Assembly (NCBI GenBank): GCA_015143295.1
Contig: CM026561.1
Coordinates: 42,908,875 to 42,972,874 of the forward strand
Length of the DNA stretch: 64,000 nt
From: Tetracentron sinense
Taxonomy: Eukaryota; Streptophyta; Magnoliopsida; Trochodendrales; Trochodendraceae
Reading direction: 5' to 3'
Part shown: positions 9,201-48,536 of the stretch, piece by piece
How the letters are laid out: each line of letters starts with the position of its first letter
Numbering within the stretch: the first letter of the stretch is position 1
Made by a program: the position numbers and the translations under genes
The notes under the pieces: generated by a model
Told to the model about the DNA's origin: nothing
What the model saw: only the letters and a program-made list of their open reading frames with translations
Databases searched by the model: none

Positions 9201-11586
9201 AAACCATGTGATGATTAAAGAATTTAATCCAGCTTTTAGGATTACAAAGGAGTATAATTGCATATCCAAAAGTTCAGTTAAAGTAAGTGGAAATTTATTT
9301 TTTTCTAACCAACACATGAATGAAACTAAAGCATCAATCCCCAGCCACTTACAAAATAAGAACTTGATGCTTTTACCGAGAAAACTGGGAAAGTTATTAA
9401 GACTAAGGTGGCAAAATCCCCTGTCAAGCTTGAAAAATATCCCAAAATCTTTAACTATAACAAGTTACCAGCATGATCCTTGCAGTAGTTCTCTTGGCTT
9501 TTGTTGGAAAATTACAAGTGGATATTATCAGGCGAAAAATCATAGGCCATGATAGTGAATCGATGCAGCTAGTTAGAGCTTAGCAACTTGGAGCCTTTTT
9601 AGCTTGAGTATATTTAAATTAGATTATCCTTTACAGTTAATAATTAAAAATTTTAAACCAGACAAGCATACTAAAAATTTTAAACCAGACAAGCATACCT
9701 GAATCATATCACTTGACCAATGGAACATCATCAGTCCTTATTTCGTATTAACATACTTAGAAAATCAATAAAATTAATAGAAGTTTGCTTGTTTCTCCAA
9801 ATATGAAGAAAGTGGTAGGACTTTACGATTTCCTCTTCCTTGTCAAGACACCACATGGTCCTAGAGTGGACGTAATCCAGTGTCCAGATCAAGTTGGCCT
9901 TTGTGTTGTGATTGACTATTTTCCTCGTGGAGTTCACCAAATCATAGTCAACTTGGTCAAAATATTGATCCTCTGGTTTTATTTTTAAAGGAAGACCCTA
10001 CCTGGCTTATATCTCTTGCTCTCTATCTTGAGTCATGTGACAAAAATATTCCTCGACCAAATGCATAAACATAATGCAACGGCTGGAAAAAATTAAAACT
10101 CATATAGTGTATTATAGTAACCTCCTACTGCCATGCATGTGCAGTACCTGCTATGTTTTTTTTTTTTCCAGTTTTGGCATCCATAATGTTTATTATTTCA
10201 TTAAATCATTTCATTTTGCATGAATTTTGTCATGCTGCCATTATGGGTAGGAGGATGTGAGCAATGCTAGTGACTTTATATGTATTGTATTAATCTATGA
10301 TGTTTTAATAATTACCACTTTGACACATCACATGATAGTTTAGACAATCAAGCTTTTTTCCAATTGCCACAACTCTACACCTCCACCTAATTGTTAGACA
10401 CCAGAATGTAAGTCGCACTGCCATGTGAGGATTAACAAGTTTCAGTTTACCCATCACATAGTAGGTCATAGAACTGATGGCTTTTGGCTCCTACATCTCC
10501 CACTTGGATATTATGCCCGGTATGTTCTTAATTGCTTCTCAAGCCTATTAAGAACACATGTTTCCTAAAATTCTAAAAACACGTGGTTTATCTTCCAGCC
10601 AACTATACAACTTGTAACACCTCATTCTTTTGCATCGCATCTTGCGAGATATTGTGCGTCTCTTTGGGGATTAGGACTGATCCAAATGGGTTGGGGACAC
10701 CTTGAGTAATTTAAAAAAAAAAACTTATACAGGCCTATATTTCTCTCCAAAGCATACTTCGCTATTTCTTTCCATTGTACCGATAAGTATATGACAGTGA
10801 TTATCACAAAGGGAACTTGTAGTTGCAGGAATCTTCTCTACAACAAGATGCAAGTGTCAACCATACTAAACCATTTACTTTCTTCTTGGGATTATGTCAT
10901 TGTCGTAATTAATCTTTCAGCTACTACTATCACAAATGCATTGTGTTGGGAGTAGACGCTATCACCATTGACAATTTTAAAAAATTCAACAATTCAAATT
11001 TTCCAATACATACAAAGCACCCCTTTTATATTTTTCTCAACGTTGACGGTTTGACGTTTCAGAAAATTTCATGGTGTGGGACAATCATACTCAAAACAGA
11101 CAGAAATTAATCATGACTAAATCCCAATTTGGGGCGTTTGGATTGGTTTTTTTGGGCCAAAAATCAATTCTGGTAAAATTGATTGTGTATAAATTAATGG
11201 TCAAATAATCATTTTTTCATATAATAGTGTTCGAAGAATTCGTAGGTGAGTCTCTCAAACTATTATTTAAAAAAATGATTATTTGATCATGAATTTCTAC
11301 ACAATCAATTTTATCAGAATTGATTTTTGGCCAAAAAAATCCAATCCAAACGCCACCTGAATAGTGTCCAAATATCTAAAAACGAACAAGCAATCAACTC
11401 ACCTGTACAAATAAACCGCTGCAAACAAAAATGCAACGTTATTGATAAAATAGCCCGATAAACCCAAAACCGCTCTGTATCCAATAACTGGAATCAATGG
11501 CGCGAAAACTGGAACATAACACATCACAAACCATTTCAACTCTACAATTCCCACAAAAACACGAATAATAAAATTCCAAGATTGAA

Positions 11587-11618
<32 letters not shown>

Positions 11619-11991
11619 ATTGAATTCGCTCACCGGTTCGGGATAACAAACGAATGCAGATCGGGAAAATAGGTAAGAAGGCGTAGGTCTGTTCGTATTC
11701 GTATCCGCAGAGCGCGATCCTGAGGAAGTAGACTCCATCCCACACAATGCTGTCTTCGATCGCTGATCCGATTCTCGGCCATAGAACTGATTCTACCGCC
11801 GGAGAGGGATGGGTGGTGTTTGAAGAGAGGCAATTAGGGTTTAAGGAGGCGGAGGTGTCGTAGGGACTGATGAGAGACCTCCAGAACACGATTAGGACGA
11901 AAAGGAGAACCCTTGAAGCAATGGCAGCTCGGAATACACTGTGGGATCGTTCCGGTTCCTTGGTTTCTGAAATTGAGGAATCGTTCGACAT
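237..11991 (-). CDS. PIGV: GPI mannosyltransferase 2 (PIG-V type), seven exons, 3' end off the window
   Basis: Exons read on the minus strand: 11991-11634, 11508-11403, 9054-8962, 8859-8666, 2679-2508, 1440-1190 and 430-237. Every junction is GT-AG and every codon phase carries over, giving 456 codons without a stop. The product matches plant PIG-V, the ER membrane enzyme that adds the second mannose to the GPI anchor precursor. Visible family signatures are VWDGVYFLRIA and GYEYEQTYAFLP in exon 1 (the lumenal catalytic region of this GT-C family), FCFNPASIFYSS across exon 3, SARSNGVLNAGYFCFQ in exon 4, YGYYNICLG and MRPWCKARLPLLYNY in exon 5, and RYFQLKQLPNFLLA in exon 6. Exon 7 ends at FLVMHVQ; the C-terminal exon, normally the last roughly 50 residues, was not found in bases 1-236 and must lie to the left. 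The start at 11991 is the first Met of the frame. Intron 4 is 5986 bp and full of repeats. The gene looks functional. Confidence 0.93.
2680..4336. other. PIG-V intron 4, left part: no gene seen
   Basis: AT-rich intron sequence downstream (in gene sense) of the hAT element. Apart from the 70-bp duplication at 3331-3470 and a short palindrome-like stretch around 4013-4095 with repeated TCTACCGCC motifs on both strands, no coding or structured feature is supported. Confidence 0.6.
3331..3470. repeat. 70-bp tandem duplication inside PIG-V intron 4
   Basis: Two adjacent copies, 3331-3400 and 3401-3470, both beginning ACCCTGCT and containing AAAGGCATGGCATAAATC. They differ at only a few positions, so the duplication is recent. 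No coding potential. Confidence 0.85.
4345..5073. mobile_element. Non-autonomous hAT-type element, 729 bp, in PIG-V intron 4
   Basis: The ends are TAGGGCTGTCAA on the left and TTGACAGCCTTA on the right, inverted copies with one mismatch. The element is flanked by a perfect 8-bp direct repeat CTTCTACC (4337-4344 and 5074-5081), the target-site size of hAT transposons. The inside is non-coding, rich in GGGCC/GGCCC-type blocks, with a (TA)n run near 4540-4557 and a phrase AGGCCCATGCCCTCAATATA present twice. No transposase is present, so it would depend on an autonomous hAT. Confidence 0.8.
5082..7400. other. PIG-V intron 4, middle part: no gene seen
   Basis: AT-rich intronic sequence. Open frames here are short and none resembles a known family. 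No clear repeats beyond low-complexity runs. Confidence 0.55.
7526..8110 (-). mobile_element. Degenerate non-LTR (LINE) retrotransposon remnant in PIG-V intron 4
   Basis: On the minus strand around 8040-7960 a frame reads FLAILWGIWE, stop, RNRRSFKN, which fits the W-x-IW-x-ERN block near the C terminus of plant LINE ORF2 proteins. A second minus-strand stretch at 7714-7526 reads GVSNLTKSNPCLYSMALELQW, loosely like the LGIKNL/NKALLxKWLW block. In an intact LINE that block comes before IWxERN, whereas here it follows, so the remnant is rearranged or two fragments lie next to each other. Stops confirm that it is dead. Confidence 0.45.
8136..8333. repeat. 98-bp tandem duplication in PIG-V intron 4
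   Basis: Copies at 8136-8233 and 8234-8333 share ACATTGATACATAAATGCAC and CATGTCATCATGCGTCCACA, with a handful of substitutions. Non-coding. Confidence 0.85.
8388..8520. repeat. Imperfect inverted repeat, MITE-like, in PIG-V intron 4
   Basis: The left arm CTAATCGCATCAACCATTAA pairs imperfectly with the right arm around TTAGTCGCC/CCATTAG read backwards (8495-8520). The arms are about 30 bp and the centre contains GGGCCCCACATCC. No target duplication could be made out, so an element origin is likely but not shown. Confidence 0.4.
9055..11132. other. PIG-V intron 2, left part: no gene seen
   Basis: Intron between exon 2 and exon 3 of PIG-V. A 26-bp phrase ending ACCAGACAAGCATAC is present twice in tandem around 9645-9700. 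No open frame resembles a known protein. Confidence 0.55.
11133..11354. mobile_element. Foldback MITE, 222 bp, in PIG-V intron 2
   Basis: The element is almost entirely palindromic. GGCGTTTGGATTGG at 11133 pairs with CCAATCCAAACGCC ending at 11354, and pairing continues for about 95 bp per arm (through CCAAAAATCAATTCTG and AAATAATCATTTTTT), leaving a short loop around 11235-11260. It could form a very stable hairpin in the pre-mRNA. It ends 49 bp inside the exon 2 donor site. No exact target duplication is visible. Confidence 0.8.
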
Positions 11992-13620: not shown

Positions 13621-15960
13621 GTTTAGAACGGTATGGATATCAGATTTAGGCTAACTGAAGTTGCAAGAAACCCAATTAAACTTCAAACTCAAAAAAATAC
13701 CAATGACCCCATTTTAGTAGTTTCCGTAAAAATCAATTCTACCCTTCTTCAAGCTCAAACTTTATTCAAGCCGTGCCAAGCTCATATGAGCTCAACCTTT
13801 TTTAAAAATTTTTTATCTAAGGTAACAATACCACAAGGTAAAGCTATAGTCAAACGGAAGGAATACACACACCATTCACACGTGTGCACACACACACACC
13901 ACTAACCACCCAACTCATGAAGCTTCACACCACATGAACCTCAAAACGAGTACCAACCATTTGAGGGCCATGGAACTTTATGAGCTAGAGTGGTCGTAGT
14001 AAACTACTGAGGTGGAACTAAACTCAAACTTGATTGATGTAATTATTTTATTTAACTTTAATAAAAATATTTATTAATAAATTATAAACAAATAACTCCA
14101 AAATTTAATACATATTTCCAAAATTAGATTTTTTTTAATAAAGAATCTAGATAGTTAGATCAAAGTTTTTGCTTTTTTTTTATTTATTACATTTATGAAA
14201 AGTTATAATGACAAATTTTAAAATAGTAATTTGTATTAATATAAATAATATTATCAAAAATATTGTGTGTATATATAAATATATATTTTTAGTCGAACAA
14301 ACCTAAACAAGCCAAGCTTTGAGTCAAGCCAAATCAAACATGGTCTAACATGAGCTTGGCTTGTTTAAACATTGAGCTCAAATAAAAGCTTAGTTTGATT
14401 TGTTCAAGCCTAAATGCTAGCTTGAGCTAGACTCAAATGAGTCAGCTTAGTTGAGCTGTCAAGGTAGCTTGCCTTAAGTGCAGCTACATAGAATGTAGTT
14501 TTTTTTTGGGTAACCACATAGAATGTTGTTACTGAGACATAAGTGGAAGAGGAATAATCCAAACCTCACTTTGGGAGTAGTGTCTCACCCCCTTTAACCC
14601 GACACGTGTCCCTTTTGACACTTATGGTTAAATCTTTGAGGCATTCATACTATAAGTCAACTCAAACTCTCACCCTTTACCAACCACTTGTCCATGTTTT
14701 TGGGTGAGAGAGTGCTTTAATCATTGCATAATGAAAAGAATGGAAAAGTAGTTGGTGAAGGGTGAGAGTCAGTGGTGGCAAATGGGTTGGGCTGGTCGAA
14801 GCACGATTGTTCGACTTGAAGTTTGAGTGGGTTGAGTCTTCCATAACTTAGGTTGGGCTGAGTTTGGACAAGAATATAGGCCCAAAATAAATATTGGGAC
14901 AAGCTTAGGTTGCCCTTAACTCAGCCCGGATTCAGCTTAGCTCGAACTAATTAAATATATTTTATATATAATATGTATAGATAAGAGAAGGCCCACGACC
15001 TAATCTCATTATCATTCAAATGGAATTGATGTCCTTTATATAGAAAAACTACTTTTATGCTGCTATCTAAGAATGTTACTAGTAGTATCTATACTAATAC
15101 TATATGCTCACGTGGCATGCTACCTTTAACCGAACCAATAAGTTGGTGCCACGTCGTCACTAATTAAGCCAAGTATTGGGTCACATTAATAAATCTCTAA
15201 AATTAATTGCATTAAATTATATTTATATTGACTTGAGCAAATCAAGAGTCTCATCCACTCTCTTTTTACATTAATTTTTATTAATTATTAATTACTTACT
15301 ATGAAACCCAAGCATGTGGTTGGACACATGGCGGCCTTAGAGATTGTGGACACGTGTCAATTTTATAGAGTGTTGTTTTAAACTGACGCCCCAAAATCCC
15401 ATGTTGGCCTAAATAGGACTTTGGACCTGTGACACTGCATTCCATATCCATATTCGTATAACTTGCAATGCAAACTAAATATGAGTTTGTAAATTTCTTC
15501 TTTATTAAACCAAATAGAACTTCAATCTAACAATATAAATCAACTGTCGACCAACTAACAAATAATAATCCGGTCACCTATATGATCTCAATACTGAATT
15601 TAAAACCTAAGCAACATATTTAATTTTGTCTTATTACATTCATCTCAATTGAATTAAAAAAAATGTATCTAAAGATCGATAATATGGATAATAATTTGGA
15701 TTGATTTTCCCCCTGAGATAATCACTCTCCTGTTCTTCTTGATACTTTTCTTCAATCTAAGGTCTTGGAGCATATATATCGAACCCTCTTGAAACTACCG
15801 ATATAAAAGTACAGTTGAGCAAACGAAAGCCCAATGCATGTAAAGTACAATTAAGATTATAACATATCATGCAGTTGCATACATATCCATACCATATATA
15901 ATCAAAGTGTGGAAACATAAAAGCAATGTCTATACCATCATGCCATGCAAGACTTGTGAG
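13621..15960. other. Intergenic region with repeat fragments: no gene seen
   Basis: Contains a (CA)n-rich stretch (13865-13905) and a block with the words AAGCTTCAC and GTACCAACC that recurs at 46100-46280. Another block starting ACTATGAAACCC near 15299 recurs at 59872. There are also AAGCTTGAGC-type degenerate repeat words (14290-14465). Open frames are short and unrecognised. Confidence 0.5.
14667..14769. repeat. Short foldback repeat
   Basis: CTCTCACCCTTTACCAAC on the left pairs with GTTGGTGAAGGGTGAGAG on the right, about 100 bp end to end. MITE-like; no target duplication seen. Confidence 0.55.
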
Positions 15961-17892
15961 ATGAGTCTGGTCCTCAAATGACCGATTCTAGGGTGCAACC
16001 TCTATTGATGTGAATACATCTAATATATTTTTTTAAAAATAGCCATATAGTTGTTTTGAGTCCAAAAATAACAACGCTCCTCAGTTTACATTGCACCCCC
16101 TGCTAGACACAGATGGGCAACAGCGCAACACCGAGTATTGTTTCCCATCCGAACTCCTTAACGTTGAGTTTAGATGGTTAACAGTGCTCGTTGTTGCATT
16201 GTTACCTGTCTGTGTCTAACCACCGGGTGAGGCCTTTACAGAGTTCAATTGGGGTGTGCCCTTGTTGATGTTTGGCCCACCCTCTCCTCGATACAGATGG
16301 GAAACAGTGCAACTATGAGCGCTATTGCCAATCCGAACTCTTTAACGTCGAGTTTGAATGGGCAACGATCCTCGGTGTTGCGTTGTTTCCCATCTGAGTG
16401 TAACTACCAGGTGGGGCCCATCTTCTGTTCACATGGGGTCCACCTCTATTGATGTTTGGCCCACCGACTGATTGAAACAGACGAGCAACAATGCAACTTA
16501 TTCTAGGTCCAGTAAAATATCTCTCTCAAAACCGTAGAGAGAGGGATGGGATATGTTAGCTAAAAATTTGATGAAATGGACTTCTAAGATACAAAACTTA
16601 CCTTTCATTCCTCTTTTAAGTTTTAGAAAACATAGTGCGCATCAGGAGAGAGAGAGAGAGAGAGAGTGAAAAAAAGAGAGAGACATGTCTCAGTTGCTCT
16701 CTCAAAGACTTTAATGGGTTGCAATTATTTGCTAAGGGGATTTATTGCTCTTCTACAGAAATGGAATCGTATTAATTTTTATTTAATTTTAGAAGTATTT
16801 CTTGATCAGGAGAGAGAGAAAGAGAGAGCTAGTTGTGCATGTAGAGGGTGCCCTCCCCTCCCCATCTCCTTCTATATATGAGAGATAGATTGAATACCGT
16901 TTTGTAAACCATTTTCCGGCAATCTAACTCTTGGTTTTTTTTTTAAAGATGAACCAACCGAACTCACCTCCTCTATTTCCTCAAACCTAGAATACCCCAA
17001 CTATACTCCTCTGGTGCTTTTGTTTCGTAAGAGCATTACAACTTCGGATCTTAAAAGCCTCCAGTTGACTGGACAGACTATGAACTAATTCAGGGATATT
17101 GATTTTGTAGACCGGGTTGGGCGTAAAGGAATAGAGATAAATGTGTGCACACTGTACAAAAAATCACACTGCCGGCTAAATATTAGCAGCAAAGAAACAT
17201 ATAATCGGCAAACACCGTGACCCAAAATCTATCTTGAAAACTATTTTAGTCATCAAAGTGAAATTTATTGTTGGTTTTGCCTCAAACGAGGCAAAGAAAT
17301 GGTAGATATTAATATGCTTCTCATTGTGGTGGCAGCACCACCGCCTTTGAACCAAGTTGTGGTGGTGGCAGCAATGCCGCTTCCGAACTAGGTGGTGGTG
17401 GCAACAACGTCGTCTACGAACCAGGTGGCGGCTTCTCCAAACCCAGCATAGTTTATGTTGTTTGTTTGTGTTTGTTTATGTTTTGGCTTTTTTCAATTCG
17501 CTGTGGTACCATCCTATCCGGTCCGGCCCCTTACTCCTTTTTCACTTTAATTGAATGAAAAATAGTTTAATATCTACAATTAGGGGTGGTTAAATTTATA
17601 ACCATAATAGTTAGTGACTAACGTATGTGGACTATACACATTGTTTGGGTCTGCATCATTTGGATATAAAAATATGGGTGTCAATGAGACGGGGTTGAGT
17701 TTGTATTTTGTGATTTACGAATAGGCCCAACCCAAATGCTACAGTATATAATAGGTTTTTGAAACCCGATTTCGGCCCATTGACACCCCCTAGATCGAAG
17801 GAGAAGAGTCCTGACTTTGGTGCAATGGTACCCTTTCGACATGTTAAAGAGCAAGGCTAGCTCAGTAAAGCTTGAAGGCCCAAAACAATGAG
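15961..17892 (+). repeat. Array unit 1 (1932 bp)
   Basis: Full-length unit. Hairpins at about 16106-16216 and 16290-16400, half hairpin at 16474-16505, GA repeat at 16645-16668, TATA at 16873, reading frame from 16949, nested inverted repeat at about 17674-17793. The boundary is set at the GAGTCTGGTCC phrase for convenience; the true amplification joint is unknown. Confidence 0.85.
16949..17451 (+). pseudogene. Decayed array ORF, unit 1
   Basis: Starts MNQPNSPPLFPQT and then meets a TAG, because one base is missing relative to the other copies (AAACCTAG against AAAACCTAG). The homologous sequence continues to the shared end CCCAGCATAG at 17451, including a Val/Pro/Ala-rich tail region. The length is not a multiple of three. 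Non-functional as read. Confidence 0.75.
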
Positions 17893-19699
17893 ACGAGTAA
17901 GGTCCTCAAATGGCCGATTGTAGGGTACATCCTCTATTGATGTAAATGCATAACAAAGATGAAAAAAAAATAGGAATATAGTTGTTTCAAGTTCAAAAAT
18001 AACAGAGTTCTTCAGTTTAAATTGGGTCCAACATTGTTGATGTTTGGCCTACCTGATGTTAGTCACAGATGGGCAACAGCGCAACACCGAGCATTGTTTC
18101 CCATCTGAACACCTTAACGTCGAATTTGGATGTTAAAACCTCTCGCTGTTGTGTTGTTGCCTGTTTGTGTCTAACCACCGGGTGGGTCCCTTCCTCAGTT
18201 CATATTGGGTCCACCTTTTTGATGTTTGGCCCACACTCAGCTCGATACAGATGAGAAACAGTGGAACAACGAACATTGTTACCCATCCGAACTCCTTAAC
18301 GTCGAGTTTGGATGTGCAACAACGCTCGGTGTTGAGTTGTTGCCAGTCTGTGTCTAACCATCGGGTGGGGCTCATTCTCTATTCACATGGAGTACATCTT
18401 TGTTGATGTTTTTTCCATTCTTTGTTAGACACAGACAAGTAACAATGCAAAATATTCGAGACCCAGCAAAATATTTTTCACAAAATCAAAGAGGGAGAGA
18501 TGGGATATTTCATTCCACTTTTAAGTTTTAGAAAATATAATGCACATCAGGAGAGAGAGAGAGAGAGAGAGAGACATGTGTCAACTGTTCTTTCAGTGAC
18601 TTCAATGGGTTGCAATTATTTGCTAAGATGATTCATTGCTCTTCTACAGAGATGGAATCGTATTAGTTTTTATAACGTTTTAGAAGTATTTCTTTATCAA
18701 GAGAGAGAGAAAGCTAGCTGTGCATGTACAGGGAGCACTCCCCTCCCTATCTCCTTCTATATATAAAAGATAGATAAAAAACCATTCTGTAAACCATTTT
18801 CCGGAAATCTAACTCTTGGTTTTATTTTTTAAAGATGAACCAACCAAACTCACCACCTCCATTTCCTCAAAACCTAGATTACCCCAACTACACTCTAGTG
18901 TTTTTGTTTCGCAAAAGCGTTACAATTTCGGATCTTAAAAGCCTCCAGTTGACTGGAAAGACTGTGAATTACTTCTCAGATATTGATTTTGTAGATGGGG
19001 TTGGGCGTAAAAGAATAGACATTAATGTGTGCACACCGAACAAACAATCAAGCCACTGACTAACAATTAGCAACAAAGAAACATATCATCTGCAAACACC
19101 GTGGCTTCCAATTTATCTTGAAAACCATTTTAGTCTTTAAATTGAAATTTATTGTTGGTTTTGCCTCAAATAAGACGTAAAAAATGGAATATATTACTAT
19201 ATTTCTTGTGGAAGTGGCTGCTCCGCCGCCTCCGAACCAGGTTGTGGAGGTGGCAGCAGCGCTGCCTCTGAAGCAGGTAATGGCGCCTCCCAACCCAGTA
19301 TAGTATATGTTGTTTGTTTATGTGTATTTGTGTTTTTTATTTGTCAATTTGCTGTGGTACCATCCTCGCCATTCCGGCCTCTTAGTCCTTGTTTTTTGTT
19401 AATTAAATGAAAAATAGTTAATGACTAACATATGTCGAGTAAACACATGTTTTGGGTCTACATTTGACTACAAAAATAAGGGTGTCAATCAGTCGGTGTT
19501 ACGTTTGTATTTTAGATTTACTAATTGGTCCAACCAACCCAAGTGCAACAATATACAATAGGTTTTTGAAACTCGATTCCGGCCCGTTAACACTCCGTAT
19601 ATCGAGGGAGAAGAGTCCTGACTTTGGTACAATGATACCATTTCCAAATGTTAAAGAGTAAGGCTAGCTCAGTAAAGCTTTAAGGCCCAAAACAATGAG
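17893..19699 (+). repeat. Array unit 2 (1807 bp)
   Basis: Full-length unit. Hairpins at about 18062-18173 and 18243-18357, half hairpin at 18425-18455, GA repeat at 18551-18574, TATA at 18758, reading frame from 18835, nested inverted repeat at about 19479-19600. Confidence 0.85.
18835..19303 (+). pseudogene. Decayed array ORF, unit 2 (74 codons open, then TGA)
   Basis: Open for 74 codons from MNQPNSPPPFPQNLDYPNY to a TGA at 19057. Other copies have CGA there, so a single C-to-T change ended it. Downstream homology (SSKETYHLQ, PWL, YLENHF) continues to the shared stop region near 19303, with further indels. Consensus features shared with the other copies: a proline-rich N terminus, then VFLFRKS, SDLKSLQLTG, then DFVD and NVCTPN. 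The spacing of SDLK, TPN, YxLQxPW and LENHF faintly recalls a plant B3 DNA-binding domain; this is a guess. Confidence 0.7.
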
Positions 19700-20951
19700 A
19701 CGAGTCTGGTCCTTAAATGACCGATTCTAGGGTGCAATCTCCATTGATGAGAATACATCTAATATATTTTTTTAAAAATAGTCATATAATTGTTTTGAGT
19801 TCAAAAGTAATAGTGCTCCTCAATTTACATTGGGTCCACCCTTGTTGATGTTTGGCCCACCTCCTGCTAGATACAGACGGGCAACAGCGCAACACCAAGT
19901 ATTGTTTCCCATATGAAGTTCTTAACGTCGAGTTTAGATGGTTAATAGTGCTTGTTGTTGCACTGTTGCCTATCTGTGTCTAACCACTGGGTGAGGTTTT
20001 TTCTAAATTCAATTGTGGTCTACCCTTGTTGATGTTTGGCCTACCCTTTGCTCGATACAGATGGGAAATCGTGAAACAGCGAGCACTATTGCCAATCTAA
20101 ACTCTTTAACGTCGATTTTGGATTGGTAACAACGCTCGGTGTTACGTTGTTTGCTATTTGAGTCAAACCACTAGGTGGAGCCCATCCTTTGTTCATATGG
20201 GTCCACTTCTGTTGATGTTTGGCCACCGACTACTTGACACAGACGAGGAATAACGCAACTTATTCGAGGTCTAGTAAAATATATCTCTCAATACCGAAGA
20301 GATATGTTGACTATAAATTTCATGAAAATGACTTCTCAAAGACACAAAACTTACCTTTCATTCCTCTTTTAAGTTTTAGAAGCATTTCTTTATCAGGAAA
20401 CAGAGAAAGCTAGTTGTGCATGTACAGGGAGCACTCCCCTCCCTATCTCCTTCTTTATATAAGAGATAGATAGAAGACCCATTTGTAAACCATTTTCCGG
20501 CAATCTAACTCTTGGTTTTCTTTTTTAAAGATGAACCAACCGAATCCATCCCCTCCATTTCCTCAAAACCTAGATTACCCCAACTATACTCCTTCAATCT
20601 AGTCACAGAATGAATGGTACCATCCTGGCCATTCCGGCCCCTTACTCCTTTTCTTTGTAATTAAATTTAAAATAGTTTATGACTAACATATGTAGAGTAA
20701 ACACATGTTTTGGGTCTGCATTTGACTACAAAAATGGAGGTGTCAATGAGTCGGGGTTACGTTTGTTTTTGATTTACTAATAGGTTCAACCCAAGTGCAA
20801 CAATAGACAATTGGTTTTTGAAACCCAATTTCAGCCCATTAACACCCCCTAGATCGAAGGAGAAGAGTCCTGACTTTGGTGCAATGATACCCTTTCCAAA
20901 TGTTAAAGAGTAAGGCTGGCTCAATAAAGGTATAAGTCCCATAACAATGAG
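19700..20951 (+). repeat. Array unit 3 (1252 bp, internal deletion)
   Basis: Hairpins at about 19870-19980 and 20052-20164, half hairpin near 20232. TATA at 20454, nested inverted repeat at about 20729-20852. Compared with its neighbours it has lost the long GA-rich segment and most of the reading frame, which accounts for the short length. Confidence 0.85.
20531..20616 (+). pseudogene. Truncated array ORF, unit 3
   Basis: Only the first 21 or so codons of the family (MNQPNPSPPFPQNLDYPNY) remain. After the ACTATACTCC phrase the sequence jumps to the 3' flank with GGTACCATCC, a deletion of roughly 450 bp relative to unit 2. Confidence 0.75.
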
Positions 20952-22798
20952 ACGAGTCTGATCCTCAAATGACCAATTTTAGGATGCAACCTCTATTGAT
21001 GTAAATACATCTAATATAATTTTTTTTTAAAAATAGACATATAGTTGTTTTGAGTACAAAAATAATGGCGCTCCTCATTTTACATTGGGTCCACCCTTGT
21101 TGATGTTTGGCCCACCTCATGTTAGACACAAATAGGTAACAGCGCAACAACGAGTTTTGTTTCCCATCCGAACTCCTTAACGTTGAGTTTAGACGGTTTA
21201 CAACGCTCGTTGTTGCACTATTGTTTGTCTGTGTCTAACCACTGGGTGAGGCTTTTCCTGAGTTCAATTGGGGTCTATCCTTGTTGATGTTTGGACCACA
21301 CTCTGCTCGATAGAAATGGGAAACATTGCAACAGCGAACACTATTGCTAATCCGAACTCTTTAACGTCGAGTTTGGAAATGCGACAATGCTTGATGTTGT
21401 GATATTTCCCATCTTAGTCTAACCACCAGGTGGGGCCCATCCTTTGTTCACATGGGGTCCACCTATGTTGATGTTTGACCCACCGACTGCTTGACACAGA
21501 CGGGCAGCAACGCAACTGATTTGAGGTCCAGTAAAATATCTCTTTCAAAACCAAAAAGAGAGGGAGGGATTTTCATAAAATAGACTTCTCAGAGATACAA
21601 AACTTACCTTTCATTCCTCTTTTAAGTTTTAGAAAAGATAGTGCACATCAGGACAGAGAGAGAGTGAGAGAGAGAGAGACATGTGTCACCTGCTCTCTCA
21701 GGGACTTCAATGAGTTGTAATTATTTGCTAAGGGGATTCATTGCACTTCTAAAGAGATGGAATCGTATTAGTTTTTATACAGTTTTAGAAGTATTTCTTA
21801 ATTACGAGAGAGAAAGCTAGCTTTGCATGTACAGGGAGATCTCCCCTCCCTATCTCATTTTGTATATAAGAGATAGATATAAGACCGTTTTGTAAATCAT
21901 TTTCTGGAAATCTAACTCTTGGTTTTCTTTTTTAAAGATGAACCAACAAAACCACGCCCTCCATTTCCTCAAAACTTAGATTACCCCAACTATACTCCAG
22001 TGTTTTTGTTTCATAAGAGCATTACAACTTCGGAGCTTAAAAACCTCCAGTTGACTGGACAGACTGCGAATTACTTCCGAGATACTGATTTTGTAGACTG
22101 GGTTGGGTGTAAAAGAATATACGTTAATGTATGCACACCGAACAGACAATCATACCGGCGACTAACAATTAGCAGCAAAGAAACATATCATTTGCAAACA
22201 CCATGGCCTCAAATTTGTCTTGAAAACCATTTTATTATTTAAATTGCTATTCATTGTTGGTTTTACCTCAAATGAGACGAAAAAAATGATAGATATTACT
22301 ATATTTCCTGTGGTGGTGGCTGCACCACTGCCTTCAAACCAGGTCATGATGGTGGTAGCAACGCCGCCTCTGAAACAGTTAGTGGTGCCGCCTAACCCAG
22401 CATAGTATTTGTTGTTTGTTTATGTCTATTTGTGTTTTTTATTTTTCAATTCGCTGTGGTACCATCCTGGCTGTTCCGGTCACTTACCCCTTGTTTTTTT
22501 AATTAAATGAAAAATAGTTAATGGCTAACATATGTCGAGTAAACACATGTTTTGGGTCTGCATTTGACTACAAAATAGGGGTGTCGATGATTAGGGGTTA
22601 CGTTTGTATTTTAGATTTACTAATAGGTCCAACCAACCCAAGTGCAACAATATGCAATAGGTTTTTGAAACCCGATTTCTGCCCGTTGACAACCCTTAGA
22701 TTGAAGGAGAAGAGTCCTGACTTTTGTTCAATTATACTCTTTCTAAATATTAAAGAGCAAGGCTATCTCAGTAAAGCTTTAAGGCCCAGAACAATGAG
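20952..22798 (+). repeat. Array unit 4 (1847 bp)
   Basis: Full-length unit. Hairpins at about 21124-21237 and 21308-21420, half hairpin near 21490, interrupted GA repeat at 21654-21680, TATA-like TATATAAG at 21863, reading frame region from 21938, nested inverted repeat at about 22577-22693. Confidence 0.85.
21938..22405 (+). pseudogene. Decayed array ORF, unit 4 (frameshift after the start codon)
   Basis: One base is missing about ten codons after the ATG, so the ATG frame soon stops. The shifted frame, however, stays open from the proline-rich N-terminal part to LENHFII at 22240, the longest surviving stretch of the family (roughly 100 residues). A second open stretch carries the tail VVVAAPLPSNQ and ends PPNPA at 22405. 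It shows that the ancestral frame joined the B3-like part, the PWPQ motif and the Val/Pro-rich tail. Confidence 0.7.
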
Positions 22799-24120
22799 AC
22801 GAGTCTAGTCCTCAAATGACCGATTATAGGGCGCAACCTCCATTGATGTGAATACATTTAATATATTTTTTAAAAAATAGCTATATAGTTGTTTTGAGTC
22901 CAAAAATAACGGCACTCCTCAGTTTCCATTGGATCCACCCTTGTTGATATTTGGCCCAACTCCTGCTAGACATAGACGGGCAACAACATAACACCGAGTA
23001 TTGTTTCACATCCGAACTCTTTAACATCGAGTTTAGATGGTTAACAGTGCTCATTGTTGCACTGTTGCCTGTCTATGTGTCTAACCACCAGGTGGATCCT
23101 TTCCTGAGTTCAGTTGGGGTCTACCCTTGTTGATGTTTGGCCCACCCTCTCCTCAATACAGATGAGAAACAATGCAATAGTGAGCGCTATTGTCAATCTA
23201 AACTCTTTAACGTCGAGTTTGGATGGGCAACAACCCTCAGTGCTGTGTTGTTTCCCGTATGAGTTTAACCATAGGTGGGACCCATCCTCTATTCACATGG
23301 GGTCCACCTCATTATATGTTTGGACCACCGACTGCTTAAAATAGATGGGTAATTATTTGTTAAGGGGATTCATTGCTTTTGGTTTTCTTTTTTAAAGATG
23401 AACTAACCGAACTCACCTCTCTATTTCCTCAAAACCTAGACTACCCCAACTATACTCCTCCAGTATTTTTGTTTCGCAAGAGCATTACAACTTCGGATCT
23501 TAAAAGCCTCAAGTTGAATAGACAGACTGTGAACTAATTCAGGGATATTGATTTTGTAGACCGGGTTGGGCGTAAATGAATAGACATAAATGTCTGCACA
23601 CCGTACAAACAATCACACTGTCAACTAAATATCAGCAGCAAAGAAACATATAATCTGCAAACATCGTGACCCAAAATCTATGTTGAAAACCATTTTAGTC
23701 CTAAAAGTGAAATTTATTGTTGGTTTTGCCTCAAACGAGACAAAGAAATGGTAGATATTAATATATTTCCCGTGGTGGTTGCAGCAATGCCGCCTCCAAA
23801 CTAGGTGGTGGAGGCAGCAACGCCGACTGTAAACCGGGTGGTGGCTTCTCCCAACCCAGCATAGTATATGTTGTTTGTTTGTGTTTGTTTATGTTTTGGC
23901 TTTTTTCAATTCGTCGTGGTACCATCCTATCCGGTCTGGCCCCTTACTCCTTTTTGACTTTAATTGAATGAAAAATAGTTTAATATACCCGATTTTGGCC
24001 CGTTGACACCCCCTAGATCAAAGGAGGAGACTCTTGACTTTGGTGCAATATAATGATACCCTTTCCACATGCTAAAGAGCAAGGCTGACTCAATAAAGCT
24101 TGAAGGCCCAGAACAATGAG
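22799..24120 (+). repeat. Array unit 5 (1322 bp, promoter segment deleted)
   Basis: Hairpins at about 22969-23080 and 23154-23265. Right after the half hairpin (about 23350) the sequence jumps to the few bases before the reading frame, so the GA repeat, TATA box and most of the leader are gone. Only the 3' half of the nested inverted repeat remains (near 23985-24013). Confidence 0.85.
23398..23864 (+). pseudogene. Decayed array ORF, unit 5
   Basis: The third codon is TAA (ATG AAC TAA) where unit 2 has CAA. Homology continues through the KSITTSDLKSL region and DFVDRVGRK to the shared end at CAGCATAG (23864). It also lacks the TATA box, so it is doubly dead. Confidence 0.75.
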
Positions 24121-25050
24121 ACGAGTCTAGTCCTCAAATGGCCGATTGTAGGGTGCATCCTCCATTGATGTGAATGCATCTCATAGATTAAAAAAAATAG
24201 CCATATAGTTGTTTTGAGTCCAAAAATAATAGTGCTTCTCAGTTTACATTAGGTTCACTCTTGTTGATGTTTGGCCCACCTCCTGCTAGACACAGATGGG
24301 CAACATCGAGTGTTGTTTCCCATCCGAACTCCTTAACGTCGTGTTTGAATGGTTAACAACACTCGCTGTTGCGTTGTTACGTGTTTGTGTCTAACCATCG
24401 GGTGGGGCCCTTCCTCAGTTCACATGGGATCCACCCTTGTTGATGGTTGGCACACCCTCTACTCGATATCGATGAGAAACTGTGCAACAACAAGCACTGT
24501 TGCCCATCCGAACTCCTTAACGCTGAGTTTGGATGGGCAACAACGCTCGATGTTGCACTGCTACCCATCTATGTCTAACCACAAGGTGAGGGCCATCCTC
24601 TGTTCATATGGCGTCCACCTTTGTTAATGTTTGCCCCTTGCTAGACATAGACGTGCAACAACGCAACATATTCGAGGTCCAGCAAAATATTTCTCACAAA
24701 ACCGAAAAGGGAGGGAAGGGATATATTGACTAAAAAATTCATGAAATTGACTTCTCAGATAGCCAAAACTTACCTTTTGTTAATCTTTTAAATTTTATAA
24801 AAACAATGCACATACAGGAGAGAGAGAGATAGTGAGAGATAGAGAGAGATGTGTGACCTGCTCTCTCAGGGACTTAAATGAGTTGTAATTATTATTATTA
24901 TTAATAAGGGGGTTCATAACTCTTCCCAGAGATGGAATCATATTGGTATTTACATAGTTATAGAAATACTTCTTTATTAGGAGAGAGAGAGAGAGAGAGC
25001 TAGCTGTGCATGTACAGGGAGACTACTGTCATCCCCTCCCCATCTCCTTC

Positions 25051-25060
25051 TATATATAAG
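25051..25060 (+). promoter_or_regulatory. TATA box of the array ORFs (unit 6 shown)
   Basis: TATATATAAG, 77 bp before the ATG. The same box lies 76-77 bp before the ATG in units 1 (16873), 2 (18758), 3 (20454), 4 (21861) and 7 (26913). It is preceded by a conserved block GCATGTACAGGGAG and a GA-dinucleotide run. The fixed distance in diverged copies suggests a genuine core promoter and a short leader in the ancestral unit. Confidence 0.6.
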
Positions 25061-25127
25061 AGATAGATAGGAGACTCTTTTGTTAACCACTTTCCGGCAA
25101 TCAAACTCTTGGTTTTCAGTTTTAAAG

Positions 25128-25400
25128 ATGAACCAATCGAATTCACCCCCTCCATTTCCTCAAAACCTAGAATATCCCAACTACACTCCTCCAATGTTTT
25201 TGTTTCGTAAGAGCATTACAGCTTCAGATCTTAAAAGCCTCTGGTTAATTGGATATACTGTGAACTATTTCAGGGATATTAATTTTGTAGACCGGGTTGG
25301 GTGTAAAGGAATAAACGTAAATGTGCGCACATCGAACAGACAATCACACTGTCAGCTAAAGATCAGCAGCAAGGAAACATATAATCTGCAAACACCGTGA
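25128..25400 (+). CDS. Array ORF, unit 6: 90-residue protein, the best surviving copy
   Basis: ATG at 25128, 77 bp after a TATATATAAG box, then 90 codons to a TGA at 25398. The protein starts MNQSNSPPPFPQNLEYPNY, then MFLFRKSITASDLKSL, FVDRVGCK and SSKETYNLQTP. The stop replaces the TGG (Trp) seen in units 2, 4 and 7, so it is probably a truncated form missing PWPQ...LENHF and the Val/Pro tail still readable to 25597. No signal peptide or membrane segment. Function unknown; the layout faintly recalls a plant B3 domain. It might be translated, but a pseudogene is more likely. Confidence 0.45.
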   Translation: MNQSNSPPPFPQNLEYPNYTPPMFLFRKSITASDLKSLWLIGYTVNYFRDINFVDRVGCKGINVNVRTSNRQSHCQLKISSKETYNLQTP

Positions 25401-26383
25401 CCCCAAATATATCTTGAAAACCATTTCAGTCTTCAAAGTGAAATTCATAGTTAGTTTTACCTCAAACAAGATGAGAAATAGTAGATATTAATATATTTCA
25501 TGTTGTGGTGGCAGCATCGCCTCCTCCGAACCAGGTCGTGGTGGTGGTAGCAACGCCGCCTCTGAACCAAATGGTAGCATCTCCCAACCCAGTATAGTAT
25601 ATGTTGTTTGATTGTGTTTTTGCTTTTTTCAATTCGTTATGGTACCATCTTGTCCGGTCTGACCCCTTACTCCTTGTTCTTTTTAATCAAATGAAAAATA
25701 GTTTAGTTTTTGGAATCAGGGGTGGTTAAATTTATTAACCATAATGGTTAGTGACTAACATATGTAGAGTATACACATGTTTTGGGTCTACATCATTTGA
25801 ATATAAAAATAAGGGTGTCAACGGGGCCGGGGTTGAGTTTGTATTTTGTGATTTATGAACAAGCCCAAACCAAGTGCAACAGTATACAATAGGTTTTTGA
25901 AACCCGATTTTGGTCCGTTGGTACCCCCTAGATCGAAGGAGAAGAGTCCTGACTTTGGTGCAATGATACCCTTTCCACATGTTAAAGAGCAAGGCTAGCT
26001 CAGTAAAGCTTGAAGGCACAGAACAATGAGACGAGCCTGGTCCTCAAATGGCCAATTGTAAGGTGCATCCTCCATTGATGTGAAATAATCTCAGATATTA
26101 AAAAAATACACATATAGTTGTTTTGAGTTCAAAAATAACAACGCTCCTCAATTTACATTGGTTCCACCTTTGCTGATGTTTAGCCCACCTCGTGCTAGAC
26201 ACAAACGGGCAACAGAGCAACACCGAGTGTTGTTTCCCATCCAAACTCCTTAACGTCGAGTTTGGATGGTTAACAGAGCTCGTTGTTGCATTCTTGCATG
26301 TCTGTGTCTAACCACCGGGTGAGGCCCTTTTCCTCAGTTTACATGGGGTCTACCCTTGTTGATGTTTGACTCACCCTCAACTC

Positions 26384-26496
26384 AATAAAGATCGGAAATA
26401 GTGCAAAACCGAGTGGTGTTGCCCGTCCGAACTCCTTAACGTCGAGTTTGGATGGGCAACAACACTCGATGTTGCACTGTTGCCCGTCTGAGTCTA
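26384..26496 (+). repeat. Representative array hairpin (about 16 full copies in the window)
   Basis: Two nested pairings share one axis. The inner arms GTTGCCCGTCCGAACTCC and GAGTTTGGATGGGCAAC flank the short loop TTAACGTC; the outer arms, around AGTGCAAAACCGAGT and ACTCGATGTTGCACT, extend the stem to about 50-55 bp. Every copy keeps the loop CTTAACGTCGAG or a near variant. A spacer with GGTGGGGCCC and TTGATGTTTGGCCCACC separates neighbouring copies. Confidence 0.85.
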
Positions 26497-26989
26497 ACCA
26501 CAGGGCGGGGCTCATCCTTTGTTCACATTGGGTCCTCCTTTGTTGATGTTTGGCCCACCCCCTGCTTGACATAGACGGGCAACAACACAACTTATTCGAG
26601 AGAGGGAGGGGATATGTTGACTGAAAATTTCATGAAATGGACTTCTCAAACACTCAAAACTTACCTTTTATTCTTCTTTTAAGTTTTAGAAAATATAGTG
26701 TATATGCAGGAGAGAGAGAGAGAGAGAGAGAGATGTGTGACCTGCTCTCTGGGGGACTTCAATGAGTTGCAATTATTATTATTATTATTTGCTAAAGGGA
26801 TTCGTATTGGTGTTTGTACAGTTTTAGAAGTATTTCTTCATTCGGAGAGAGAGAGAGAGAGCTAGCTGTGTATGTACAAGGAGCCCACTCTCCTCCTCTC
26901 CCTATCTCCTTCTATATATAAGAGATAGATAGAAGACCCTTTTGTAAACCACTTTCCAACAATCTATCTTTTGTTTTTCTTTTTTAAAG

Positions 26990-27458
26990 ATGAACTAATC
27001 GAACCTCCCTTCCATTTCCTCAAGACCTATAAGAACCCAACTACACTCCTCCAGTGTTTTTGTTTCACAAGAGCATTACAATTTCAGATCTTAAAAGCCT
27101 CTAGTTCACTGGACATACTGTTAACTACTTCAAAGATATTGATTTTGTAGATCGGGTTGGGCGTAAACGAATAGACATCAATGTGCGCACATCGAACAAA
27201 TAATCACTCTACCGGCTAAAGATCAGCAGCAAGGAAACATATCATCTGCAAACATTGTGGCCCCAATTCTATCTTGAAAACCATTTTAGTCTTCAAAGTG
27301 AAATTCAATGTTGGTTTCGCCTCAAACAAGACAAAGAAATGGTAGATATTACTATCTTTCTTGTGGTCGTGGCAGCACCACCACCTCCGAACCAGATTGT
27401 GGTGGTGGTAGCAATGCTACCTCTGAACCAGGTGGTGACGCCTCCCAACCTAGCATAG
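26990..27458 (+). pseudogene. Decayed array ORF, unit 7
   Basis: ATG AAC TAA, the same early stop as unit 5, suggesting these two share a more recent ancestor or that the stop arose twice. The 3' part is well kept: from 27255 a frame reads WPQFYLENHFSLQSEIQCWF, KQDKEMVDITIF, then VVVAAPPPPNQ and ends at 27458. This copy shows best how the family's C terminus looked. Confidence 0.75.
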
Positions 27459-27889
27459 TATATGTTGATTGGTTATGCTTGTTTGTGTTTTTGCTTTTTT
27501 CAATTTGTTGTGGTACTATCATGTTTAGTCTGACCCTTCACTCCTTGTTCTTTCTAATTATATGAAAAATAGTTTAGTTTTTGGAATCAAGGGTGGTTAA
27601 ATTTATTAACCATAATGGTTAGTGACTAACATATGTAGAGCATACACATGTTTTGGGTTTGCATCATTTGGATATAAAAATAGGGGTGTGAATGGGTCGG
27701 GGTTGAGTTTGTATTTTGTGATTTATGAAAAGGCCCAATCCAAGTGCAACAGTATACAAAACCTGATTTCGGTCCGTTAACACCTCCTAGATCGAAGGAG
27801 AAGAGTCCTGACTTTGTTGCAATGATACCATTTCTACATGTTAAAGAGCAAGGCTAGCTCAGTAAAGCTTGAAGGCCCAGAACAATGAG

Positions 27890-28545
27890 ACGAGCCTAGT
27901 CCTCAAATGACCGATTGTAGGGTGTATCCTCCATTGATGTGAATGCATCTCATAGTTTTCAAAAAAATAGCCATATGAACTCCTTAACGTCGAGTTTGGA
28001 TGGGCAACAATGCTCGGTGTTGCGTTGTTGCCCGTCTCTGTCTAACCACCGGGTGGGGCTTGTCCTCTGTTCACATGGGTCCACCTTTGTTGATGTTTAG
28101 CCAACCCCCTACAATACACAGATGGGCATTAACAATAAGTGTTGTTGCTCATCTGAACTCCTTAACATCAAGTTTGGATGGTCAACAATGATCGTTGTTG
28201 TGATGTTGCCCATCTGTGTCTAACCACTGGGTGGGGCCCATACTCAATTCACATGGGATTCACCCTTATTGATGTTTGGCCCATTCTCTGCTAGACATAG
28301 ATGAGTAACAATGCAACAACGAGCGTTGTTGCCCATCCAAACTCATTAACGTCGAGTTTGGATGATTAGCAGTGCTCGTTGTTGCCCATTTATATCTAAA
28401 CATCGGGTGGGGCCCATCCTCTATTCACATGAGGTCCACCCTTGTTGATGTTTGGCCCACCCTTGCTAGCCAGAGACGAGCAACAACGAGAGTTGTTGCT
28501 CTTCCAAACTCCTTAACGTCGAGTTTGGATGGGCAAACAATGTTA
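27890..28545 (+). repeat. Array unit 8: partial, hairpins only, extra tandem copies
   Basis: After about 85 bp of leader the sequence enters the right half of a hairpin (27976-28043), then two full hairpins (about 28117-28222 and 28300-28398) and a left half with its loop (28473-28545), spaced 167-185 bp. There is no GA repeat, TATA box or reading frame. The hairpin block has thus expanded alone at this edge of the array. Confidence 0.8.
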
Positions 28546-29184: not shown

Positions 29185-30733
29185 TTGGGGGCTACTGTCT
29201 GTTGGGCGGTGCTTAAGCTATTGCGGCGGGATGGACTCCCGGTTGGGCGGCTACTTCAGCTATCATCACTTGGTAACAAACCAAAGTTTACCCAATTATA
29301 TGTCCATAACAGCAAAAATGAAATACAATATCGTATTGAAGTTGTGAATTTCAAAAGTAATCCTACAAAAATTGAAGCTTTTGTGTTACGTGGACCACAA
29401 TGCATGTTGGATGATATCAATTCTTATGTGAAAGTGTTCCACAATGCTAGAGATACGTTAACCGAAAGTCACATTCCTAACTTGAGTATATGAATTCTAG
29501 GGTCTAGAGATGGGCGACAATACACTAGACCAATGACCAATGAAATTGCTACATTAATAATTGGTGATGGAACTGAAGATGTGGAAAATCGTGACATTAT
29601 TGTGTGTACTATAGACGGGTACCTAAAAAGGATAAATGAGAGACACCCCTCTTACATGCCGTTGCAATATCCTCTACTCTTTCCATATGGAGAAGATGGA
29701 TGACGAAAAAAAATATCTTTCACAGTTGATTCGATTCGTTCTTGAAAAGGAGGTTTCAATAAGAGAATATTATGCATTTAGATTATAATTTTGAAATAAA
29801 GAAGGGGACACATTATTTCAATGGCGGCCATTTGTTTCAACAATTTGTGGTTGATACTTATGCAGCTATTGAACATAATCAACTAAACTGGGCATGAATG
29901 AATCAGTGTAAATTGCGTTTAGACTTATATAAGAGTTTAGAAGATACTGTAACTATTAGAGATGTTGAAGCATCAACTGTGGGGAGGAGATTTATTTTAC
30001 CATCTTCTTTTATTGGATGTCCGCGTAATATGATACAATATTATCAGGATGCTATGACAATATGTTGATGGGCAAGTCTTCCAGATCTTTTTATTACGTT
30101 CACATGCAATCCAAAGTGGTTTGAATTACAACTAGAACTTGAAAGATTACCTGGACAACGACCTGAAGATAGGCCAGATGTAGTGGCACGAATATTTAGG
30201 ATCAAATTGAAATAATTGATGTTAGATTTAAAGAAGATAAACATTTTTGGAAAAGTTATAGCTGGTAAGCTTGGATTCGTTCTACGTATTTATATTTTTT
30301 TCTATGTTTTAAATACGCATAATGTTATTATACATTTTTTTAACGTATTTTATTTTTTAACAGATGTTCATGTAATTGTGTTCCAAAAAAGAGATTTTCC
30401 ACATGCACATATATTACTAACATTGGCAAAAGATGACAAGCTAGTTTCACCAGATGAAATAAATGATAACATCTCTGCAAAACTTCGTGATCAGCGGACG
30501 GATCCTTTGGCATATGAAACAATTGTGAAGTGCATGATACATGGTTCATGTGGTGTTGTCAATCCTAGGTCTCCATGCATGGTAGATGGGAAGTGTTCGA
30601 AAAGATACCCAAGGAAATTTGTGAAGGAAACAAGAATTGATGAAAATGGATTTGTTATTTATCGACGTCGAGATGATGGAAAAAGTGTGAATATTAATGG
30701 TTTTGATGTCGATAAACGTTGAGTCATCCCATA
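29185..30733 (+). pseudogene. Helitron Rep/helicase, N-terminal part (Rep domain), broken
   Basis: One frame reads FTQLYVHNSKNEIQYRIE, then after an in-frame TGA at 29491 continues GSRDGRQYTRP, INERHPSYMPLQYPLLFPYG. After frameshifts it reads LPDLFITFTCNPKWFELQLE and, past an intron-like gap (30265-30363), the HUH motif region FQKRDFPHAHILLTL, then YETIVKCMIHGSCG and CSKRYPRKF. These are landmarks of the Helitron-like N-terminal Rep domain, which nicks DNA for rolling-circle transposition. The reading ends at VIPY, where an insertion starts. At least three stops or frameshifts make it dead. Confidence 0.9.
30265..30363 (+). other. Putative intron in the Helitron Rep gene
   Basis: GTAAGC at 30265 and TTTTTAACAG ending at 30363 bracket a 99-bp AT-rich stretch. 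Removing it joins FGKVIA to DVHVIVFQKRDFPHAH in one frame, as in Rep proteins of other plants. Confidence 0.6.
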
Positions 30734-44290: not shown

Positions 44291-44292
44291 CA

Positions 44293-44417
44293 GTTCAATA
44301 TGAGTATCGATATCATCAATAAAGTTAAATATGAGTATCGACATTATCGGTACAGGTCAATATGAGTATTGATATTATCGATACAGGTCAATATGAGTAT
44401 TGATATTATCAATACAA
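44293..44417 (+). repeat. 31-bp tandem repeat, four copies
   Basis: Units start at 44293, 44324, 44356 and 44387, each containing CAATATGAGTAT, GATATTATC and GATACAG or close variants. ATCGAT/TATCGATA words make each unit partly self-complementary. Confidence 0.75.
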
Positions 44418-47724: not shown

Positions 47725-47970
47725 GTTGAAGATTTGAGCCGATGGGAGTTCAGGTTGAGTTTGTTGGCCTGACCTTCTGGGTCTTGCGGTCACTGTACCT
47801 TGTGAACTAATTAATAATAATATAGTCGGGTTATCAATGGATCGGATAAGGATCTAATAATTGAATAAGATCTGATGGGAGTGGATCTTGATCTAATTGA
47901 AATTCTGTGGGATAAGATTTAAATCATGATTTTTCGAATGCAATTTTATTCATATGGAATTCAGAACTAT

Positions 47971-48006
<36 letters not shown>

Positions 48007-48536
48007 GAATGCTCTCATTCACTATTTTAGGTGATCTCTCTTGGCTTGTTGTGAAGTTTGTTCAACCTTGCTATTACCGACCAAGTTTAAGAAAATGTCC
48101 TTCTCCCGGATGAGTGCTTGTACGTCGTCAGTAGTCAGTCCAGCGACCCAATCTGGCCAAGGTATGCATGGATTGTCAGGGTTGTATGAAGGTTCACCCT
48201 AGTGACGGGGTTATGGTCATGCGACGGAACGTAGGAAGTTGATACGGAATCATCGAAATTCCTGGAAGCCCTTTTGTTGGCCTGACCCTAATAGAGGTCT
48301 AAACGTTGTTGAAAGGTGTTCGGCACTGCACTGAGTTGAACTCGGGTCTCTCGTTGTTGCTCTATTATTTGTATTACCTGCATGAGTATCAGAAATTGCG
48401 GTCTCTCATATTGTTGAAAACTTCCAGATTGATCATCAAACTGGTGACCCGCATCTACATAGTCCCCAGGTGGGTGATGAACAGCCATATCGTTTCCAGT
48501 ACCTTTCCTCCCAGTAGCTTTCAAGTTACTTTTGAA
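47725..48536. repeat. Dispersed repeat, copy A (second copy at 59171-59860)
   Basis: Shares long stretches with 59171-59860: GTTGGCCTGACCTTCTGGG, AATAATATAGTCGGGTTATC, GTCGTCAGTAGTCAGTCC, ATGGAATCATCGAAATTCCTG (as GAAT...) and CATCTACATAGTCC. Copy A has an additional (TA)n stretch at 47977-48002. On the minus strand both keep a frame with DYVDAGHQFDDQ and QFLILMQ, like the glutamine-rich start of a Ty3/gypsy gag, so this may be a retrotransposon fragment reading leftwards. Confidence 0.6.

Follow-up and report, generated by a model that had tools for sequence, protein, structure and literature searches.

Mutator-type MITEs and the remains of a host gene in a tandem array of Tetracentron sinense: a probable case of co-amplification

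What kind of repeat carries long hairpins, a promoter and a reading frame in one unit? The question is posed by a 64,000-nucleotide stretch of the Tetracentron sinense genome (C11:42908875-42972874; hereafter, the window), in which positions 15957-28545 of the forward strand hold a head-to-tail array: seven units, U1 through U7, and an eighth, U8, that consists mostly of miniature inverted-repeat transposable elements (MITEs). A preliminary description, drawn from the letters alone, had offered three identities: a small-RNA locus, an amplified non-autonomous transposon with a captured gene, or a decayed gene cluster. Analysis of the window, together with searches of the 1.16-Gb assembly (1479 contigs), points to a composite answer. 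The array probably arose when a string of MITEs beside a host gene was amplified together with that gene, whose copies are now dead.

Organization of the array

Self-BLAST and unit alignment bear out the preliminary description of seven units and a partial eighth built on one composite structure (Table 1), including its GA repeat and TATA box, present as GA tracts and a TATA-like box. Pairwise identity is 79.6-88.7% among U1-U7 and 72.4-76.7% for U8; large deletions account for the short units, U3 and U5. Copies that lie 11-20% apart are unlike an assembly duplication, which disposes of the artefact that the preliminary description had kept in view.

The unit tree, from which U8 was left out, pairs U1 with U5, U6 with U7, and U2 with U4, with bootstrap values of at least 95 on all four inner branches. 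Since U1/U5 and U2/U4 are non-adjacent, amplification was not a simple endwise addition of units, one by one. MITE blocks stand at both ends of the array, giving eight blocks and seven gene segments.

The hairpin element

The sequence that forms the hairpins is a dispersed repeat of about 173 bp, mostly starting with GAGTTCGGATGGGCAACA (left variants include GAACTCGG) and ending with TGTTGCCCATCCGAACTC. A 161-bp hairpin query found at least 83 genome matches with 40 of 372 candidates scored; the family is larger than counted. Full-length copies without a close neighbor (n = 23) have defined ends and share terminal inverted repeats of the GAGTTCGGATGG type. Eighteen of these 23 have a target-site duplication of 9 bp on their flanks, with no more than one mismatch, versus 2 of 690 displaced control positions within the same loci; at 8 bp, a repeat borders 21 of 23 copies versus 6 of 690 controls. 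Because of this duplication pattern at dispersed copies, the hairpin element is read as a Mutator-type MITE, dispersed over the genome.

A search with nhmmer, using a model from four dispersed copies against 31 dispersed loci and the array, resolved the array into 24 elements or parts in series. Each of U1-U7 contains the right part of one MITE, a complete second MITE, and a third without approximately its last 27 bp; U8 has three near-complete MITEs. The long hairpins are the facing terminal inverted repeats of neighboring MITEs: a right arm, then nine bases, then the left arm of the following element. Of the 18 hairpin centers, U8 has four and every other unit two. The "2.5 hairpins" of the preliminary description correspond to two centers plus the incomplete third element.

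The spacer at the 18 centers is CTTAACGTC or a close variant, and measures 9 bp at all 16 scored junctions. This loop has the size and position of a MITE target-site duplication, and most likely it is the original duplication of the insertion itself. The hairpins group according to their place within the unit (first versus second, U8 included) rather than by unit; none of 500 shuffles was as clustered (branch support, 84 and 79). Therefore, the MITE string most likely predates unit amplification. The transposon unit is repeated head to tail as in a MITE-derived satellite, with 24 elements in the array and strings at 12 other loci.

The dead gene and its relative

The reading frame of about 155 codons exists as a consensus, but no copy is open, and the 155-codon consensus itself has one internal stop: TGA at codon 91, where U2, U4, and U7 have TGG. 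All seven open reading frame (ORF) copies carry stops, and most also carry frameshifts or deletions. The frame is a former host gene. A protein search of the genome (22 of 22 candidates scored) recovered the array itself and, on C23, an intact relative with 152 codons and 65% identity over 136 residues; the GA tract, TATA-like box, and leader of the array align with the region upstream of it. The search also found a distant 124-codon frame on C23; weaker stretches on C14 and C23; and, at E 0.35-0.5, stretches on C5 and four small contigs. The label of decayed gene cluster therefore suits the ORF part, in which none of the seven copies is whole while an unbroken relative exists at another site.

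The ratio of nonsynonymous to synonymous rates (dN/dS) between the C23 gene and the array consensus is 0.38, so the gene was constrained for part of the divergence time. Within the array, private codon changes have a nonsynonymous-to-synonymous (N/S) ratio of 2.29, compared with 3.02 expected without selection. ORF divergence (0.173) lies inside the range of other unit parts (0.109-0.193), and the excess of third codon positions over the others was equalled in 41 of 300 permutations. Stop 47 is common to U1 and U5, and stop 103 to U2 and U4. Both are sister pairs on the unit tree, so already broken copies were duplicated again.

No known protein family accounts for the ORF. In Pfam, with E values up to 10 allowed, neither the consensus nor a piece of U4 nor the protein from C23 matched a family; the distant C23 paralog gave one chance-level match. 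Sequence searches of the PDB found no family and no B3 entry, and a suggested likeness to the B3 domain failed in Pfam as well. Structure prediction from six read-through copies (mean pLDDT 34.3) was not used.

Two other features lie near the C23 relative. Another tandem array, whose period is near 1.88 kb (C23:20393000-20406154; L066, L027), starts roughly 0.9 kb downstream from the intact gene and extends past the fetched piece. Near C23:20411112-20411418 (L027), the C23 promoter and an ATG occur again (approximately 96.5% identity over 720 bp), with a frame that is cut short soon after its start.

The nested inverted repeat noted earlier lies near the unit end and, as found in U1, has arms of 27 nucleotides that are 74% complementary. 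At C23, a stretch with 75% identity to it runs the opposite way. The inverted repeat looks like another MITE, presumably of hAT type; no target duplication was established.

A proposed history

The following sequence of events would account for the array. A Mutator-type MITE would have landed next to a small host gene with a single exon, or next to a duplicate of that gene, and multiplied in place to form a head-to-tail string with copies 9 bp apart, most likely the target-site duplication of the insertion. Next, the whole segment, with MITE string, promoter, gene, and 3' region, would have been amplified to roughly seven copies. MITE blocks lie on either side of each gene copy and close the array at its two ends, and unequal exchange among these repeated blocks probably drove the expansion; the layout of eight blocks and seven genes fits such exchange without proving it. 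Gene copies would have broken during ongoing amplification and then drifted almost neutrally. The array probably has no present function.

Several observations weigh against parts of this history. The N/S ratio is somewhat under the neutral value, and second codon positions vary least (0.144, versus 0.185 and 0.191); brief selection may have acted on some gene copies. Two stops, 91 (U1, U5, U6) and 3 (U5, U7), need reversal, conversion, or parallel change on the unit tree. The outer flanks of the MITE string are truncated, such that the putative target duplication in the window is represented by the 9-bp spacers alone. Finally, the pairwise difference is lower in the spacer (0.136) than in the stems (0.253) or the rest (0.270), a contrast that the proposed history does not account for.

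Alternative explanations for the array

Might the stems instead be kept as double-stranded RNA precursors, making the array a small-RNA locus? MITE hairpins often supply small-RNA pathways, and of five stretches folded, the four complete hairpins reach z scores of -8.6 to -12.5, with 0 of 200 shuffles as good (a fifth, with the center and one arm only, gives -1.5). Such strong folding arises because facing inverted repeats must fold. Across 16 complete hairpins, 58 stem pairs, and 500 shuffles, the stems show no excess of compensatory change: two-sided changes number 9 versus 10.6 in shuffles; pair types, 45 versus 45.1; cells paired, 77.6% versus 77.2%; and the covariation score, 0.150 versus 0.141, is matched by 67 of the 500 shuffles. 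Rfam searches yielded four weak matches, all under the gathering scores, and no known RNA family. Because stem pairs vary independently, neither RNA selection on the stems nor, accordingly, a selected small-RNA or RNA-structure locus is supported. We consider this explanation quite unlikely.

A transposon does account for the hairpins, as tandem Mutator-type MITEs that occur genome-wide, but not for the whole unit. That the composite unit is itself a transposon amplified here, for example a Helitron with a captured gene, would accord with the MITE-like inverted repeats in every full unit and with a Helitron_like_N remnant about 1.35 kb right of the array. (This remnant, at 29898-30212 of the window, is in broken pieces with E values of 2e-6, just under the curated cut-off, and 4.8e-13.) However, when the genome was searched with a 971-bp promoter-ORF query (E up to 0.001; all 17 candidates scored), eight of the 18 matches fell in the array and one at C23, and the other nine cover only 35-60 bp at the GA tract. 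Beyond the array and the one C23 locus, this query found no dispersed copy of promoter and ORF with defined ends. Comparison of the array edges likewise found neither a direct repeat (5-8 bp) nor an inverted one (7-9 bp). Because promoter and ORF were found only in the array and at C23, the composite unit is not a dispersed transposon; its amplification as a transposon is very improbable. Scarcely to be credited is a living gene family with hairpins for regulatory or insulating elements: divergence is indeed lowest in the promoter region (690-970; 0.136) and a 3' stretch (0.109), but seven of seven reading frames are broken. The co-amplification of a MITE string with a host gene, whose copies broke while copying went on, remains the probable explanation.

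Junctions in other tandem strings

The same MITE forms tandem strings elsewhere, where the spacer usually differs from that of the window (Table 1). In six strings of fetched loci, 28 of 29 junctions between intact neighboring ends have a spacer of 5 bp; damaged ends and gaps greater than 20 bp are outside this count. Another string, L072, has a single junction of 6 bp. An exact genome pattern that allows 0-20 bp between MITE ends gave 20 forward matches and a control of 0. Thirteen tandem-MITE loci were read, with C4:11.27 and C1100 taken as one (97% identity over 884 bp). The spacer is 5 bp at nine of these, or eight without C2:49.38, which is 5 bp by hand reading and whose pattern match spans an extra terminal 12-mer. 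Among the 13 loci, the 9-bp spacer occurs in the window only. Under a uniform spread of 0-20 bp the 5-bp peak has a chance of about 1.6e-8, a crude model applied to loci that are no random sample.

Spacer sequence varies from locus to locus. At six of the seven 5-bp loci with a readable outer flank, the spacer is identical to the five bases at one end or the other of the neighboring 9-mer (background at one position, 0.7%); the C671 spacer matches its flank at four of five bases. C2:25.43 and C2:49.38, with unreadable outer flanks, are outside this count. These matches were read by hand; an automatic test took the wrong termini at C6:42.87 (L075) and gave no match there. At four of the six matching loci, the next flank base is the first base of the element. 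Microhomology may therefore contribute to the 5-bp junctions. Template switching at microhomologies of 0-3 bases may also play a part, yet on its own it does not explain the constant length. Insertion of a second MITE into the end of the first was set aside as the source of the 5 bp: the four extra terminal bases that it predicts at the outer flank were not seen at L075 or L077.

How, then, did the strings form? The P element has an 8-bp target duplication, and McGurk and Barbash reportedly proposed a double-insertion model for its tandem insertions in 2018. Repeated insertion at one site, a second copy landing in the target duplication of the first, predicts a spacer of target-duplication size; excerpts of PMC9659126 describe this model for the Drosophila P element. 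The 9-bp spacer of the window is better suited to double insertion or exchange at the duplication, and L085, where the spacer is 8 bp long (ATTAGCTA) and the right flank reads TATTAGCTA, also favors repeated insertion. However, exactly the same 9 bp must be reused more than once, and most other strings in the genome have 5 bp. Repeated insertion, rather than local multiplication, as the origin of the MITE string is possible, though on the doubtful side.

A rather unlikely and tentative idea, offered by analogy, concerns the 5-bp junctions. In a plant Mutator-type element, the two ends might be joined through five bases taken from the target duplication beside it, as happens in the circles of bacterial IS256 relatives. 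On this view, the 5-bp junctions would be relics of a copy-out-like strand transfer that seeded the tandem strings, and the 9 bp of the window a second route or a longer variant. According to excerpts of PMC7780238, IS256 circle junctions contain 5, 6, 7, or 19 bp of flanking DNA, either end attacks, and the transposase is related to those of Mutator-like elements (MULEs). An active mosquito MULE, as treated in excerpts of PMC5225508, is closely related to IS256 and its family is cut-and-paste, which speaks against copy-out as the ordinary route. In the portions of the open-licence literature consulted, no eukaryotic Mutator element with a 5-bp junction rule turned up; MITE-derived satellites, IS256-type junctions, and reviews that cite the double-insertion model did.

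Other features of the window

An exon for GPI mannosyltransferase 2 (PIG-V; Pfam E 2.6e-22) lies at 11545-11991 on the minus strand. Direct repeats of 554 bp at 50854-51397 and 56847-57400 (94.9% identity, 6 kb apart) look like the long terminal repeat (LTR) pair of a retrotransposon. They are enclosed by direct repeats at 47716-48530 and 59164-59868 (84-90% identity), which look like a nested older LTR element. Short tandem repeats with periods of 18-70 bp and CACAA and CAACGTAGCTCGG motifs (52059-52806) are inside the putative LTR element. A 31-bp tandem repeat at 44273-44416 has 4.6 copies, with the short palindrome GTATCGATATTATCGATAC.

Table 1. Array features and 5-bp MITE strings. Positions refer to the window unless a contig is named; fractions are 5-bp junctions among those counted.
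Feature	Position	Strand	Length	Remarks
Whole array, U1-U8	15957-28545	+		Self-BLAST and unit alignment
U1	15957-17888		1932 bp	
U2	17889-19695		1807 bp	
U3	19696-20947		1252 bp	
U4	20948-22794		1847 bp	
U5	22795-24116		1322 bp	
U6	24117-26026		1910 bp	
U7	26027-27886		1860 bp	
U8	27887-28545			Short left remnant, then hairpins
U1 MITE block	16101-16497	+		Right part of MITE 1, complete MITE 2 (about 16166-16340), MITE 3 without about last 27 bp; nhmmer, four dispersed copies
U2 MITE block	18013-18451	+		nhmmer
U3 MITE block	19824-20259	+		nhmmer
U4 MITE block	21059-21517	+		nhmmer
U5 MITE block	22902-23351	+		nhmmer
U6 MITE block	24241-24668	+		nhmmer
U7 MITE block	26152-26591	+		nhmmer
U8 MITE block	27977-28545	+		End of one MITE, three near-complete, start of another; nhmmer
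First of 18 spacers	16157-16165			Between neighboring MITEs; hairpin loop of the preliminary description; read as 9-bp target-site duplication
GA tract upstream of U1 ORF	16648-16668	+		Homologous tract at C23
TATA-like box, U1	16873-16879	+		Aligned with TATATAT at C23; U6 counterpart 25051-25058
U1 ORF remnant	16949-17451	+		
ORF remnant ATG starts	18835 (U2), 20531 (U3), 21938 (U4), 23398 (U5), 25128 (U6), 26990 (U7)	+		
Inverted repeat near unit end	17676-17788	+		GGGTGTCAAT...ATTGACACCC; found in U1
5-bp string	C7:26.53 (L028)			6/6; TCTTA in CTCATCTTA
5-bp string	C10:1.61 (L029)			10/11; TTCTA in TTCTAGTGA
5-bp string	C6:42.87 (L075)			2/2; CAATT in CAATTGTAA and CAATTGAGG
5-bp string	C3:25.78 (L077)			1/1; TCCAA in TCCAAGTTG and TCCAAGTAG
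5-bp string	C1100 and C4:11.27 (L079/L088)			L079, 2/2; C4, TGACA in TGACAGAGG
5-bp string	C6:9.10 (L083)			ATAAT in ATAATAGTA
5-bp string	C671 (L086)			
5-bp strings	C2:25.43 and C2:49.38 (L071 and L087)			L071, 7/7
Other spacers	C2:45.06; C6:26.31 and C9:32.20			6 bp; 8 bp at both

Relation to known systems

The locus offers a clear example of a hairpin-MITE string and a neighboring gene that were probably amplified together, with copying that continued past the death of the gene. Moreover, tandem strings of one MITE family provide natural end-to-end junctions in which both the length and the sequence of the spacer can be read. Should other Mutator-like families prove to follow the 5-bp rule, an end-joining, replicative route for eukaryotic Mutator elements would become testable from genome sequence alone.

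Several known systems invite comparison. Like other MULE-type MITEs, this one is a short, non-coding, dispersed element with terminal inverted repeats and a 9-bp target duplication; it differs in its nested palindromic arms and its in-place, head-to-tail strings. MITE-derived satellites, as excerpts of PMC9659126 and PMC12628747 present them, likewise are tandem repeats sourced from a MITE, whereas here just two to three MITEs are present per unit, inside a unit that bears a gene. The Tetris foldback transposon and its TIR-220 satellite in Drosophila virilis, in excerpts of PMC4079207, are assigned to the Mutator superfamily by their 8-10-bp duplications and form transposon-derived, satellite-like arrays. 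In that case the repeat sits within the inverted repeat, whereas the present array strings whole MITEs together and includes a co-amplified host gene. The tandem P-element insertions in excerpts of PMC9659126 share a spacer of target-duplication size, but they concern the P element, for which double insertion was inferred. Finally, IS256 joins its ends through a short, flank-derived spacer (excerpts of PMC7780238), with which the 5-bp strings of this genome may be compared. IS256 is bacterial and its circles were seen by experiment, whereas the plant-type MITE is represented by genomic tandem junctions alone, with a spacer of 9 bp in the window.

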